64,000 nt of DNA from positions 1 through 64,000 of the forward strand of contig NZ_JOCB01000030.1 in the NCBI RefSeq assembly GCF_000718775.1. The letters run 5' to 3'. Position numbers and translations under genes: made by a program. The notes below the pieces were generated by a model. The model was not told the origin of the DNA and searched no databases. It was given only the letters and a program-made list of their open reading frames with translations. Below, piece after piece: positions 39,859 through 44,206 of the stretch. Every line of letters begins with the position of its first letter. The stretch's first letter is position 1. Source of the stretch: Streptomyces sp. NRRL S-31. Its GTDB lineage: Bacteria; Actinomycetota; Actinomycetes; Streptomycetales; Streptomycetaceae.

Positions 39859-40638
39859 TCACTCCCGCCAGGGCTGGTCGCGGTGGGTGAAGGCCGCGCG
39901 CAGTCGCGGCTCGCCGATGGCGCGGACGCCGCGGACGGCGACGGAGGTGAGGAACGACCGCTCGTCCCCGGCCGGCCTCCCGGTCAGCGCGCTCAGCAGC
40001 CGCTGCCCGGCCGGGGAGGCCCAGCGCGAGTACGGATGCGCCTCGAACCGGGCGATGGCCAGGCAGCTCAGCGTCAGTGTCAGGGGCAGGGCGAACCACA
40101 GGCCCACCAGCAGCCGCGGTGTCCCGGTCGGCACGGGCAGCAGCAGGGCCGTCACGCCCAGCGCCACCACGACCGGCACCGCGGCCCGCACCTGCCGGAC
40201 GGCGGAACCCACCGTGGTCCCCGTGCCCTCGGGCACCGCGAGCCCGGCGCGCACCAGACCGTCGGACAGCCGGCGCACGGCCTGCGCGCCGGCCGCCCGC
40301 GCCCGCACCGGCGCGATCCGCGACTGCCCCTCGGGCCCGATGGCCCCTATGACGGACCGCTCCATCTCGTCGCGGCCGTGCGGGTCCACGACCGTCGCCC
40401 AGCCGGTGTGCGCGAGCAGCAGCCGCCGCTCGCGGGCCATCGAGACGAGCGTCACGTCGGCGACCCGCGCGGGGCCCCCGGAGAGGAAGGCCGCCTCGTA
40501 CAGCGTCAGATCACGCGCGTCGTCGGCCGGAACGCCGGAGGCGTCCTCGGCTGCCGAGCGAACCGCCGTCAGGCACAGCCGGGCACAGGCCGTACCGGCG
40601 AAAGCCCAGGCCAGGAGCAGGAGAAGGACCCAGAACAT
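39859..40638 (-). CDS. TIGR04222-domain membrane protein without the usual Gly/Cys-rich tail
   Basis: This 259-residue protein has an N-terminal span (MFWVLLLLLAWAFAG), then the TIGR04222 block RDLTLYEAAFLSGGPARVADVTLVSMARERRLLL, then two central spans (VPVVVALGVTALLLPVP; LLVGLWFALPLTLTLSCLAIA). Many relatives end in a low-complexity Gly/Cys/His tail, and the family often lies near DUF692 genes. This copy stops at AAFTHRDQPWRE. After the stop, another frame reads Gly/Ser-rich (GGSEGGSGGASG), which could be a decayed tail. The function is unknown. It lies in line with the DUF4142 and DUF692 genes. Confidence 0.75.
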   Translation of the reverse strand: MFWVLLLLLAWAFAGTACARLCLTAVRSAAEDASGVPADDARDLTLYEAAFLSGGPARVADVTLVSMARERRLLLAHTGWATVVDPHGRDEMERSVIGAIGPEGQSRIAPVRARAAGAQAVRRLSDGLVRAGLAVPEGTGTTVGSAVRQVRAAVPVVVALGVTALLLPVPTGTPRLLVGLWFALPLTLTLSCLAIARFEAHPYSRWASPAGQRLLSALTGRPAGDERSFLTSVAVRGVRAIGEPRLRAAFTHRDQPWRE

Positions 40639-40745
40639 GACGCGTTTCTATGTCAGGGGCCGGGGCGGAGGCCATGCCCTTTCCGGGAATTGAACGCAGT
40701 GTGGCCGGTATGTGATCTTCCGTTTCACGGGCCGGTCAGGCGCGG

Positions 40746-41465
40746 TCAGGGCCCGCCCGTCGTCGGCGTGACCGGTACGGCGGCGCTCGGGTCGACCTCC
40801 GGCGGGGCCGGCGCGGCGGACGGGGTGGACGCCAGGTCCCTGGCCAGCGCGCCGAAGTCGACGTACCCCGTCGCCTCCAGGACCTTGATGTGGTCCAGGA
40901 CGGTCGCGTTCGCGTCGTCGGCGAGATCACGGACCAGGGAGTTCTGGGTACCGGCCCGGACCTCGGCGACCAGGGAGAACACCCGGCCGTGCGCGAGCCG
41001 CAGGATTCCGGCGAACCGGCGGTCGAAGTCCTGCCCCTCGGCCGTCTCCAGGGTGGCGAGCCACTGCTTCTGCTGCTCGTTCGGCTCGTTGGGCAGGCCC
41101 ACGCCGAGCCGGGTGGCGACGGTCCGCACATGGGCGTCCAGGGTGGTGTGGCCGTCGACGAGGTGCCGCCCGGCCGTGCGGACGGCCGGTGTCGTGCCCT
41201 TGCGCCGCGCCAGCTCACCGGCCGGCAGCTCCCACAGCCCGGCCAGCCGGACCTTGGTGACGAAGTCGCGGTCCCGCGCCGAGAGCGGTCCGTACGGCGT
41301 CGTCACCGTCCGCGTGCTCAGCGGGGTCGCGTCCGCCGGGTCCGACGAGCCGGAGTACGACCAGAGCGGCGCCAGCAGGGCGACGGCCGTCACCGCGAGC
41401 GCGGTGACGATGAGCCAAGTGCCACCGAGGATGCCCCGGCCGGGAACGGGGGGACGCGCTCGCAT
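40746..41465 (-). CDS. DUF4142 (ferritin-like helical) exported protein
   Basis: This 239-residue protein has one N-terminal membrane anchor (GGTWLIVTALAVTAVALLAPLW) and a DUF4142 helical domain from about residue 65 to 200. That family is an all-alpha bundle related in shape to ferritin (DRDFVTKVRLAGLWELPAGELA; GRHLVDGHTTLDAHVRTVATRLGV; FAGILRLAHGRVFSLVAEVRAGTQ). The His/Asp/Glu pairs typical of a metal site are only partly visible. A Pro/Ala-rich tail ends it. The ATG follows AGGAGG. It sits between the TIGR04222 and DUF692 genes on the same strand, with gaps of 107 and 290 bases. Confidence 0.75.
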   Translation of the reverse strand: MRARPPVPGRGILGGTWLIVTALAVTAVALLAPLWSYSGSSDPADATPLSTRTVTTPYGPLSARDRDFVTKVRLAGLWELPAGELARRKGTTPAVRTAGRHLVDGHTTLDAHVRTVATRLGVGLPNEPNEQQKQWLATLETAEGQDFDRRFAGILRLAHGRVFSLVAEVRAGTQNSLVRDLADDANATVLDHIKVLEATGYVDFGALARDLASTPSAAPAPPEVDPSAAVPVTPTTGGP

Positions 41466-41640
41466 GCTGCCTCCTGCCCCGCACACCGGGGGCGCCTGGC
41501 GGCGGGTGCGGGGTTGGCATGGTAACCGGGGCGCGGGGGACGGCTTTCGGGTGCGGGTACGGGGGCGGCGACTTTCGGGTGCGGGGGCCCGGCGGGAGCT
41601 GCGGGTGCGGGTGCGCTTGCCGGTGCCGGGGCGGCCTTCG

Positions 41641-41713
41641 GTTCGGGGTGCCCGTACGGTCCGGCTCTGGTTCGGGGTGCCCGTACGGTCCGGCTCTGGT
41701 TCGGGGTGGCCGT
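41641..41713. repeat. 29-bp tandem repeat upstream of the DUF4142 gene
   Basis: Two perfect 29-base copies (41641-41669 and 41670-41698, each starting GTTCGGGGTGCCCGTACGG) are followed by a third that matches for only about 10 bases. Shorter TTTCGGGTGCGGG-type repeats fill 41540-41630. The tract lies between the DUF692 stop and the DUF4142 start. It could be a slippage-prone spacer or a regulator-binding array. Confidence 0.8.
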
Positions 41714-41755
41714 TCGGGTCGGTCGGTTCGGGCGGTCGCCGTGGGCCGCGGTCGT

Positions 41756-43090
41756 TCAGGGGTGGCGGCGCAGGGCTCCCCGCAGCCGGGCCGTCCATCG
41801 CGGCCTCGGCTTCCGGGGGGCCGGTCCCGCCCGGTCCAGCCACCACTCCCGCAGCTCCCGCCGGGCCCCGGCGTCCGCCGGTCGCCCCAGCTTCAGCAGG
41901 TGCCCGGCGAAGTCCAGCGCGTCCCGCCGGTACCCCCCGCTCATCGGCCGCTGCCGGGCGTACGCCAGGAACGCCTCCCGGTACCCGGCCCCGAGGATCC
42001 CCGGCAGCTCGGGAGCCACCTTCGCCACCACGCCCGCCCGCTTCGCCGCCAGCGCCCGCGCCTGCACCCGCATCCGCGCCCGGTCGAACCCCTCCGGCAC
42101 CGGCGTCCCCGCCACCAGGGACGACAGCACGGCGGCCTGGGCCACCCCGAGCCGGTCCCGCACCTCGGCCACCGGCCGCGCCAGCACACCGACGCCCCCG
42201 GCCCCGGTGCGCGCGGCGCCCCCCGACGCCGTACCCGCCGTCGCCGGGCCCCGCCCCGAGCGCGCCCGGCCGGCCGCCACGGCCTTCCGGATCGTGCCCA
42301 GCTCCCGCTCCAGCTCGGCCGGTGCGGGGAAGTTCTCGTCCCGCTCCAGCAGCACCCCCGGCGGCGCGACCCGGGCGGCGAGGGCGGTCAGGATGTCGAG
42401 CACCGGGCGCGGCACCGGGTGGGCGTGGCTGTCGTGCCAGACGCCGTCGCGTTCGAAGCCGCCCGCGACATGGACGTAGGCGATCGCCTCCAGCGGCAGC
42501 CCGGCCAGCGCCTCGGCCGGGTCCTCGCCCCGGTTGACGTGGTTGGTGTGCAGGTTGGCCACGTCGATCAGCAGCCGTACGCCGGTCCGCTCGACCAGCT
42601 CCGACAGGAACTGCCCCTCGGTCAGTTCCTCGCCCGGCCAGGAGAACAGCGCGGCGATGTTCTCCACGGCCAGCGGTACCGGCAGTGCCTCCTGGGCGAT
42701 GCGGACGTTCTCGCACAGCACGTCCAGCGCGTCCCGGGTGCGCGGCACGGGCAGCAGGTGGCCGGCCTCCAGCCGCGGGGAGGCGGTGCGCGGGCCGCCC
42801 GCCCGGACGAAGGCGATGTGCTCGGTGACCAGCGGGGAGCCGAGGGCCTCCGCCCGCTCGGCGAGCGCGACGAGCCGCCCCTCGTCGGGGCGGTCGGCGC
42901 CGCCGAGGCCGAGGGAGACGCCGTGCGGGACCACCGTCACACCCCGCTCGCGCAGCCGCAGCAGCGACGGCGGGAGGTGACCGGGGCAGACGTTCTCCGC
43001 CACGACCTCCACCCAGTCGATGCCCGGCATCCGCTCCACGGCGTCCGCGATCTCCGGCCGCCAGCCGATCCCCGTCCCCAGTCGCCGCAT
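41756..43090 (-). CDS. DUF692 / MNIO-family iron oxidase with C-terminal partner-like domain
   Basis: This 444-residue protein has a TIM-barrel DUF692 domain at about residues 1-275, the family of multinuclear non-haem iron oxidases such as MbnB and TglH that modify peptide cysteines. Candidate metal ligands are His in [12 protein letters not shown], Glu/His in TEHIAFV, Glu/Asn in AVENIAALF, Asp/Asn/His in [16 protein letters not shown], His in YVHVAGGFE and HDSHAHPVP, and Glu/Asp in LLERDENFP. The C-terminal 150 residues ([21 protein letters not shown] through [13 protein letters not shown]) look like the separate DUF2063-type partner of other MNIO systems, here fused. An Ala/Gly/Arg-rich linker joins the two. 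No obvious Cys-rich precursor peptide gene is adjacent. Confidence 0.82.
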
Positions 43091-43216: not shown

Positions 43217-43933
43217 TCAGCGCAGCGCGGGGTGGTCGGCGACGACCGTGCAGGAACCGGGCGCGATCTCCGTGAAGCCGGCGTCGCGGACCAGCGGCAG
43301 ACCGCTGCCGGTGAGCCGGGGCCAGTCGGCCGGGCCGGCCGTGCGGACGGCCAGCGGGAAACCCGCCTCCCGCCACGCCGTGCGCTCCGCGTCGGACAGG
43401 GCCCACCACGCCAGCTGGGCGCCGTGACCGGCCTGGGCCATCGCCTTGCCGGCCGACATCTCCAGCTCCGGGTTGAGCCAGAGCACCGGCTGGGCCCGGT
43501 CGGCGGCGGCGGGCGGCTCCGGGTCGTCCAGCTCGGTGCCCGACACCTGGAGCTTCGCCAGGTCCTTGGGCCAGCCGTCCAGCGGGACCGGCGGGAAGAC
43601 GCGGACCTCGGCGGACTTGCCGGTCACCGTGATGCCGGGCAGCGCCTCGGCACGCCGCCACTCCGCGCCCCGGGCCCGCCGGACGACCTTGCGGATCCGC
43701 GCGTCCTCCCAGTTCCGCACCGCCTCGGCCCACTCCCCGTCGCCGTGCGCGCGCTCGTCGCCGAGCAGGAGCAGCACGGCCCGGGCGGCCGTCTCCAGCG
43801 CGTCGGTCCGGGCGGGCGGGGCGCTGCGTTCGAGGCGTACGACGAGCGGCAGCACGAACTGCGGCGCCTCGTCGCGCGTGTCGTGCTCGGACCGGAAGGG
43901 ACTGTCGGCGGAATCCGCTGGAACTTGGCTCAC
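43217..43933 (-). CDS. peptidyl-tRNA hydrolase 2 (PTH2) domain protein
   Basis: This 238-residue soluble protein has an N-terminal helical half of about 130 residues ([39 protein letters not shown]). The C-terminal domain contains the PTH2 hallmark LEMSAGKAMAQAGHGAQLAWWAL near residue 160, followed by PLAVRTAGPADWPRL and DAGFTEIAPGSCTVVADHPA. PTH2 enzymes release peptides from tRNA, but the family is mainly archaeal and eukaryotic. In Streptomyces this longer form is present in addition to the usual Pth and its activity is untested as far as I know. GTG 43933 is the start. Confidence 0.78.
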   Translation of the reverse strand: MSQVPADSADSPFRSEHDTRDEAPQFVLPLVVRLERSAPPARTDALETAARAVLLLLGDERAHGDGEWAEAVRNWEDARIRKVVRRARGAEWRRAEALPGITVTGKSAEVRVFPPVPLDGWPKDLAKLQVSGTELDDPEPPAAADRAQPVLWLNPELEMSAGKAMAQAGHGAQLAWWALSDAERTAWREAGFPLAVRTAGPADWPRLTGSGLPLVRDAGFTEIAPGSCTVVADHPALR

Positions 43934-44023: not shown

Positions 44024-44206
44024 TCACCCCGAGCAGGCGGTGCGCTGGGCCTCCTGCCACTCGCACACCGGGCACAGCGTGACGCCCTTGTACGACTCCG
44101 GGTACTCGGTCGGCTCCCGGCACAGCACGCACTCGGCGTACGGCGGGCCGTCGGCCGTGGCCGGCTTCACCGCGTCGGTGATCGTGCAGTAGTCCTCGTC
44201 GCTCAT
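44024..44206 (-). CDS. small zinc-ribbon-like protein
   Basis: This 60-residue protein has two CxxC pairs (AECVLCREP and TLCPVCEWQ) spaced 20 residues apart, the arrangement of a zinc ribbon, plus two further Cys near the ends (DEDYCTITD; TACSG). It is short, acidic and soluble, with no signal peptide. ATG 44206 is close to a GAGGC box. It lies 18 bases beyond the deacetylase gene's stop and could share its transcript. The function is not known. Confidence 0.7.
   Translation of the reverse strand: MSDEDYCTITDAVKPATADGPPYAECVLCREPTEYPESYKGVTLCPVCEWQEAQRTACSG

Follow-up and report, generated by a model that had tools for sequence, protein, structure and literature searches.

We describe a locus in a 64,000-nucleotide stretch of DNA from Streptomyces sp. 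NRRL S-31 (contig NZ_JOCB01000030.1, positions 1 to 64,000; this whole stretch is the window in what follows) that encodes an iron oxidase of the MNIO superfamily with a C-terminal extension. Four genes, all on the minus strand, follow one another in the order PTH2-like, MNIO with its extension, DUF4142 and TIGR04222. They lie where an earlier, sequence-only reading of this DNA had placed them, and family scans agree with it. The features are as follows.

43217..43933, minus strand: PTH2-like (peptidyl-tRNA-hydrolase-like) gene, upstream of the MNIO gene; PF01981, 36.6 bits against a cut-off of 23
41756..43090, minus strand: MNIO and partner gene, 444 residues; PF05114, 258 bits against a cut-off of 25
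42278..43090, minus strand: MNIO (DUF692/PF05114) catalytic domain, residues 1-271, from PF05114 and ligands mapped from TglH
42191..42277, minus strand: low-complexity linker, about residues 272-300, from the linker statistics of fused loci and low predicted local distance difference test scores (pLDDT)
41756..42190, minus strand: fused domain, very probably a PME-type 2 partner, about residues 301-444; PF26136, 'SCO6045-like C-terminal domain'
40746..41465, minus strand: DUF4142 protein gene; PF13628, 80.2 bits against a cut-off of 27
39859..40638, minus strand: TIGR04222 membrane protein, the tail-less paralogue T_B; TIGR04222, 153.9 bits against a cut-off of 43

The DUF4142 gene starts at an ATG at 41465, read by eye (the family-scanned stretch ended at 41462); its product has an N-terminal region with a hydrophobic stretch, as read from the sequence, and no Cys. 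Past the TIGR04222 gene lie an alpha/beta hydrolase gene and then convergent genes, which we take to be hemQ and hemY by sequence recognition. The nearest named loci, those of S. spinosus, S. olivaceoviridis and S. achromogenes among them, place the host in Streptomyces.

The best solved relatives of the MNIO domain are TglH, a DUF692 protein and MbnB. The accessible text of PMC10880893 gives the TglH ligands as H71, H107, E151, D184, H216 and E258, with D184, N187, D229 and H231 at Fe3. Their counterparts here, mapped by alignment to TglH with motif order used for the two N-terminal His, are H56, H91, E143, D176, H207 and E249, with D176, N179, D220 and H222 as the Fe3 set. The sequence-only reading had treated missing metal ligands as grounds for giving it up; nine TglH-type ligands of Fe1, Fe2 and Fe3 are present, and the iron site of the window MNIO is, to judge from its residues, intact. 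The enzyme scored below the cut-offs of the equivalog for the bufferin maturase BufB (NF050167, 174.3 bits against 310) and of the methanobactin MbnB model (TIGR04159, 26.7 bits against 325). An MNIO match was found in 114 of 121 Streptomyces genomes; the set of 111 loci compared below does not include those of genomes G028, G073 and G112, nor second MNIO copies. At one MNIO and partner locus (L214) the MNIO is broken into several pieces, and the same genome has another MNIO copy.

The fused MNIO-partner form occurs in 100 of the 111 Streptomyces loci and in all 80 of the nearest named loci. The partner is a separate gene in nine of the 111, and in six of these nine its start codon lies 5 nucleotides before the MNIO stop (L172 and L152 were omitted when changes between split and fused forms were counted). 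Fused or adjacent, it accompanies the MNIO in 110 of the 111 loci, one of the 110 being frameshifted, and the remaining locus is cut by the contig end. Linkers in the 100 fused loci measure 16-255 residues (median 36.5); a model of the full-length fusion, poor overall (pLDDT 60.5), falls below a pLDDT of 50 over residues 277-347. The association extends to other genera: the partner domain was found in 59 of 296 genomes of the class, every one of which also has an MNIO, and outside Streptomyces it stands beside an MNIO at 36 of 36 places and is fused to it at 9 of the 34 places re-found by profile. One stand-alone member, P0264, corresponds by species and length (Micromonospora matsumotoense, 158 residues) to the PME-type 2 exemplar in the accessible part of the publication.

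Structure prediction is consistent with this assignment. The model of the window's partner domain has six helices and no strands, and thus no RRE sheet; the RRE domain, optional in PME-type 2, is not present in it. Its top structural matches are TglI and MbnC, and it combines a structural relation to TglI/NGO1945 with the lack of a DUF2063 signature, the combination by which PME-type 2 is recognised. NGO1945 itself (3dee) was not among the structural matches listed, which excludes nothing, and profile searches of the domain against PDB sequences gave no useful relative. With PME-type 2 partners, TglI and MbnC the domain shares its family, its place after the MNIO and the helical fold of the N-terminal domain; unlike them it is fused to the MNIO, and its model lacks RRE strands. 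Family, adjacency elsewhere and structural matches all agree, and we are confident that the C-terminal domain, which the sequence-only reading had called partner-like, is a PME-type MNIO partner in natural fusion.

That reading had also suggested a Gly/Cys-rich tail of the TIGR04222 protein as the substrate. Co-occurrence of MNIO and TIGR04222 across genomes is borne out by profile searches and by locus comparison, and TIGR04222 relatives with Gly/Ser/Cys tails do exist, but in Streptomyces the tails belong to a paralogue other than the one in the window. A tree of 130 TIGR04222 sequences separates T_A (58) from T_B (72, including the window's) without error; the window copy is 19-29% identical to T_A and 44-89% identical to T_B. 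T_A tails have a median of 95 residues and 8 Cys, and WCA is found in 35 of 54. The T_A domain starts a median of 3 nucleotides from the MNIO:partner stop, and at most 60 nucleotides from it in 51 of 55. Outside Streptomyces, all 25 TIGR04222-bearing loci have at least one copy with at least 3 tail Cys. The window's T_B, on the other hand, stops four residues past the domain, with no Cys there and no tail, so the adjacent protein has no Cys tail to offer; with T_A absent as well, the tail of the neighbouring TIGR04222 protein fails as the substrate in the window.

Charges around the T_A spans favour, by rule, a cytosolic tail that a cytosolic MNIO could reach: Lys and Arg per 15 residues come to 3.3, 3.5 and 3.3 at the presumed inside flanks but only to 0.8 for the outer loop (counted in those sequences, 37 of 54, that have three clear spans). 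The T_B pattern is weaker, at 1.8, 2.7 and 1.6 against 1.1 (67 of 72). This cytosolic reading contrasts with the periplasmic topology given in the accessible text of PMC12452194.

As judged from gene content, nearly all of the window's clade lacks T_A but retains the enzyme. Of the 95 loci that are complete on the downstream side, 50 carry T_A, with just 1-2 tail Cys in two cases, and 45 do not; the 16 of 111 loci that fall short of the downstream boundary are left out of the complete-locus counts, and tailed copies from incomplete loci are still counted among the 58 T_A-bearing rows. In the window, the gaps of 290 bases between MNIO and DUF4142 and 107 bases between DUF4142 and T_B leave no room for T_A. 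On the MNIO tree (short L142 omitted; L411 omitted from alignment A5) the T_A distribution requires four changes. A single clade of 51 (approximate likelihood-ratio support, SH-aLRT, 98) takes in nearly all the T_A-less rows; L084 and L071 fall elsewhere, and one member of the clade, L148, does bear T_A. Among the 80 nearest named loci, none of the 69 complete ones has T_A. DUF4142 lies downstream in 30 of the 45 T_A-less against 6 of the 50 T_A-bearing complete loci; as a replacement for T_A it was rejected, for the raw Fisher value is 4e-8, yet there are just 2 to 4 independent pairs on the tree.

Some genomes lack the TIGR04222 family altogether. No match was found in 15 of the 121 genomes, 11 of which have an MNIO: five with a complete locus (G013, G023, G045, G107 and G110; 21 candidates scored per genome) and six drafts, uncounted since their locus sits at a contig edge or lies outside the fetched set. 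By hand count, 25 of the 45 T_A-less genomes have no TIGR04222 match besides T_B; extra copies beyond T_B were inspected in the window genome alone.

The absence of the adjacent T_A gene, and the fact that no counted neighbour is universal, raise the question of whether the enzyme of the window's clade is a relic whose substrate has gone. The state of the enzyme makes this very improbable. The nine iron ligands are invariant in all 45 T_A-less loci (and in 57-58 of the 58 T_A-bearing, one row being a fragment), and the partner is still fused in every one of the nearest named loci. The MNIO domain has a median ratio of nonsynonymous to synonymous substitution (dN/dS) of 0.15 in T_A-less loci, below the 0.23 of T_A-bearing loci (250 sampled pairs each; the TIGR04222 rows of this run mixed paralogues and were not used). 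By this measure the MNIO is under purifying selection in the T_A-less lineage and has not decayed along with the loss of T_A. The accessible text of PMC4991794 lists SCO6045, which we treat as the orthologue on the strength of the Pfam family name, among the genes raised by peroxide in S. coelicolor; the rise is 3-fold, and the gene belongs to a set that depends on HbpS-SenS-SenR and also includes cysteine and cobalamin genes.

Might the enzyme then modify its local neighbours, acting on T_B at its conserved Cys or on the DUF4142 protein at residues other than Cys? The three Cys columns of T_B, two in a CxxxC that closes span 1 and the third within span 3, are conserved in 67, 64 and 69 of 72 sequences. 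T_B is present in 39 of the 45 T_A-less complete loci, DUF4142 is downstream in 30, and MNIOs can act on Asp, Asn and Phe according to the accessible part of PMC12452194. However, the MNIO is intact in the 6 of 45 T_A-less loci without T_B, which include the five genomes without a TIGR04222 match. Conversely, genomes G047 and G105 (L175 and L176) keep T_B and its hydrolase/hemQ/hemY surroundings with no MNIO match, and their T_B still retains two of the three conserved Cys; another MNIO-less genome, G102, also has a TIGR04222 copy. Among 77 DUF4142 proteins, 65 have no Cys, and the tails are variable. Modification of local neighbours is thus, in our estimation, unlikely.

We lean slightly towards a different explanation as a whole, which starts from features that can be read from sequence: the fusion, the partner family, an iron site with all its ligands, a conserved order of genes, purifying selection that has continued, and the lack of T_A in nearly all of the window's clade. 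The protein would be a single-chain MNIO holoenzyme, its iron oxidase joined by a flexible linker to an activating, DUF2063-like helical-bundle partner without an RRE. Its substrates would be membrane-anchored proteins, whose Gly/Ser/Cys-rich tails it would oxidise at Cys on the cytosolic side, and the product would be membrane-bound tails that bind metal or protect against redox stress. The ancestral client would be T_A (its gene and that of the MNIO are coupled); that T_A tails were ancestral MNIO clients is, we think, probable. In the window's clade, with T_A gone, the enzyme would most likely act in trans on another tail protein, for which a WWAG/His/Cys family, unlinked to the MNIO locus, appears the best candidate. 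Its member in the window genome was found in a genome-wide search for Cys/Gly-tail patterns.

Contig 1, 157151-157510 (L383 6152-6511), minus strand on L383: WWAG tail protein, 120 residues

The search as a whole showed no enrichment in the window genome, with 67 matches against 111 in the reversed control. The protein consists of one span, an Arg run, a Ser linker, WWAG, His/Gly repeats and (GGGSSC)n. By rule, the Arg run after the single span favours a cytosolic tail, and to the eye WWAG tails resemble those of T_A (W-C/W-A-G, then SSCGG repeats). From sequence reading, the neighbours of the gene presumably include aminotransferase-like and ClpB-like genes. A protein search gave matches in 43 of the 121 genomes. 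When the script required WW, an open reading frame of the WWAG type was present in 30 of 30 returned loci; when it did not, a Gly/Cys frame lay at the match in 29 of 30, and all 29 contained WW. A profile search found the family in 69 of the 121 genomes. T_A-less genomes have it in 39 of 45 cases, T_A-bearing ones in 22 of 58 and MNIO-less ones in 2 of 7; all five genomes that combine a complete MNIO locus with a lack of TIGR04222 matches have it. An NCBIfam scan of three members gave nothing above cut-off. In a Pfam scan of 29 members, five were weakly like PF25184, 'YxzE-like putative bacteriocin' (best E 1.4e-5; the window genome's member scored 21.7 bits, short of the cut-off of 40), and one had a likeness to HemY_N.

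Several points weigh against the explanation and its trans client. At E <1e-10 the family count is lower, at 29 of 45 T_A-less and 11 of 58 T_A-bearing genomes; the raw Fisher p for its association with T_A absence, 7e-7, ignores kinship; and a tree-aware test gave 2 to 4 independent pairs and no signal. The set of the 80 nearest named loci overlaps the first locus set (some contigs are identical), and this overlap, together with the stricter family count, lowers the odds slightly. With evidence both ways, the WWAG tail family is a candidate trans substrate, unproven, and as the trans client of the MNIO in the window's lineage it may be put forward as a tentative possibility. The fuller proposal is rather doubtful: that a large Streptomyces clade kept the fused MNIO-partner after losing its operon-linked client, and that the enzyme may now work in trans, away from any biosynthetic gene cluster, on single-span membrane proteins of about 95-130 residues that carry a cytosolic His/Gly/Cys tail (WW, then (GGGSSC)n).

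The window genome has a second TIGR04222-like protein.

Contig 6, L003 1063-1812, minus strand: TIGR04222-like protein whose long His/Gly tail has a single Cys

It was set aside as a general client, being too rare, with matches in 26 of 121 genomes. Its tail looks metal-binding, and one neighbour of its gene is, to judge from its sequence, catalase-like.

A further alternative is that the precursor is a small Cys protein encoded upstream of the PTH2-like gene.

44024..44206, minus strand: 60-residue Cys protein, CxxC...CxxC...ACSG, between the PTH2-like and polysaccharide deacetylase genes

The CxxC...CxxC...ACSG pattern is conserved, the strand is that of the MNIO in 24 of 45 T_A-less loci, and the protein occurs in 86 of 121 genomes and in none of the seven that lack an MNIO (Fisher p 1e-4). 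These counts are, however, explicable by clade structure. Of the 18 T_A-bearing loci in which the gene is seen, 17 have it on the opposite strand; 28 of the 114 MNIO genomes have no match, and the protein looks like a zinc ribbon, though with no Pfam match. We consider it an improbable precursor. A scan of the 45 T_A-less loci found 329 intergenic open reading frames with at least 2 Cys. A bufferin system would have a Cys precursor with a Sec signal beside its MNIO; among the ten largest clusters listed, this protein is, by eye, the only one that resembles a conserved short gene. The other listed clusters were discarded, one looking like part of a TetR-type regulator and the rest like antisense frames. 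The sequence-only statement that no other precursor is seen was nearly right: the 60-residue protein had escaped it, though the distribution makes this a weak candidate.

How much of the system is new? The sequence-only reading had called it possibly undescribed, which does not hold: the accessible text of PMC12452194 (Antoine et al. 2025) already describes MNIO-TIGR04222 clusters and the order adjamnio-II-MNIO-TIGR04222, and both the MNIO-TIGR04222 link and the idea of a Cys-tail substrate are in print there. Those clusters resemble the window in the MNIO superfamily, the TIGR04222 family, a peptidyl-tRNA hydrolase gene in front and a mostly actinomycetotal distribution. The PTH2-like neighbour is comparable to the published adjamnio-II, for which the accessible text names PF01195 where we find PF01981. 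In contrast to the window, no MNIO-partner fusion is mentioned in that text (an MNIO|nitroreductase fusion is named) and the term DUF4142 is absent from it; the window for its part lacks the tailed paralogue. Many of the published clusters are said there to have no partner genes, an appearance that a natural MNIO-partner fusion would explain; for the published question of which partner serves them, we offer the fused one as the answer in Streptomyces. A literature search, with subscription papers mostly outside its reach, found no report of such a natural fusion, nor does the accessible text of PMC13174530, PMC12257519, PMC11002830 or PMC12707348 contain one. The fused enzyme is not a new kind of enzyme; the natural fusion appears to be new, and the MNIO/TIGR04222 link is known.

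The closest parallel is man-made. According to the accessible text of PMC13419390 (a preprint of July 2026), an engineered HvfB-HvfC fusion had higher activity, and the mixed-valent cofactor required the partner. The order, MNIO C-terminus to partner N-terminus, is that of the window's enzyme, whereas the engineered protein is of the oxazolin type with a DUF2063 + RRE partner. The window's enzyme would be a natural counterpart of the fusion used to trap the active cofactor, and since it has no RRE, it can reveal whether the partner's helical domain is enough by itself to set the redox state of the iron. MovX and ChrH, though not the window's family, are named as exceptions in the accessible part of the preprint. 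MovX, as far as the accessible sources describe it, is likewise an MNIO with a built-in C-terminal substrate-handling domain, of the winged-helix/RRE type, unlike the DUF2063-like part found here. The T_A-less clade offers a natural test of MNIO targets; if the WWAG tail family were confirmed as a client, it would follow that substrate searches limited to MNIO surroundings miss substrates.

Some minor features of the loci remain. An Rfam scan of the window at gathering thresholds gave no match. A 29-base tandem repeat unit is present in 3.3 copies between the MNIO and DUF4142 genes (41640-41732), and in three other loci (L136, L146 and L161) the MNIO is flanked by three DUF4142 genes, two on its upstream side and one on its downstream side.

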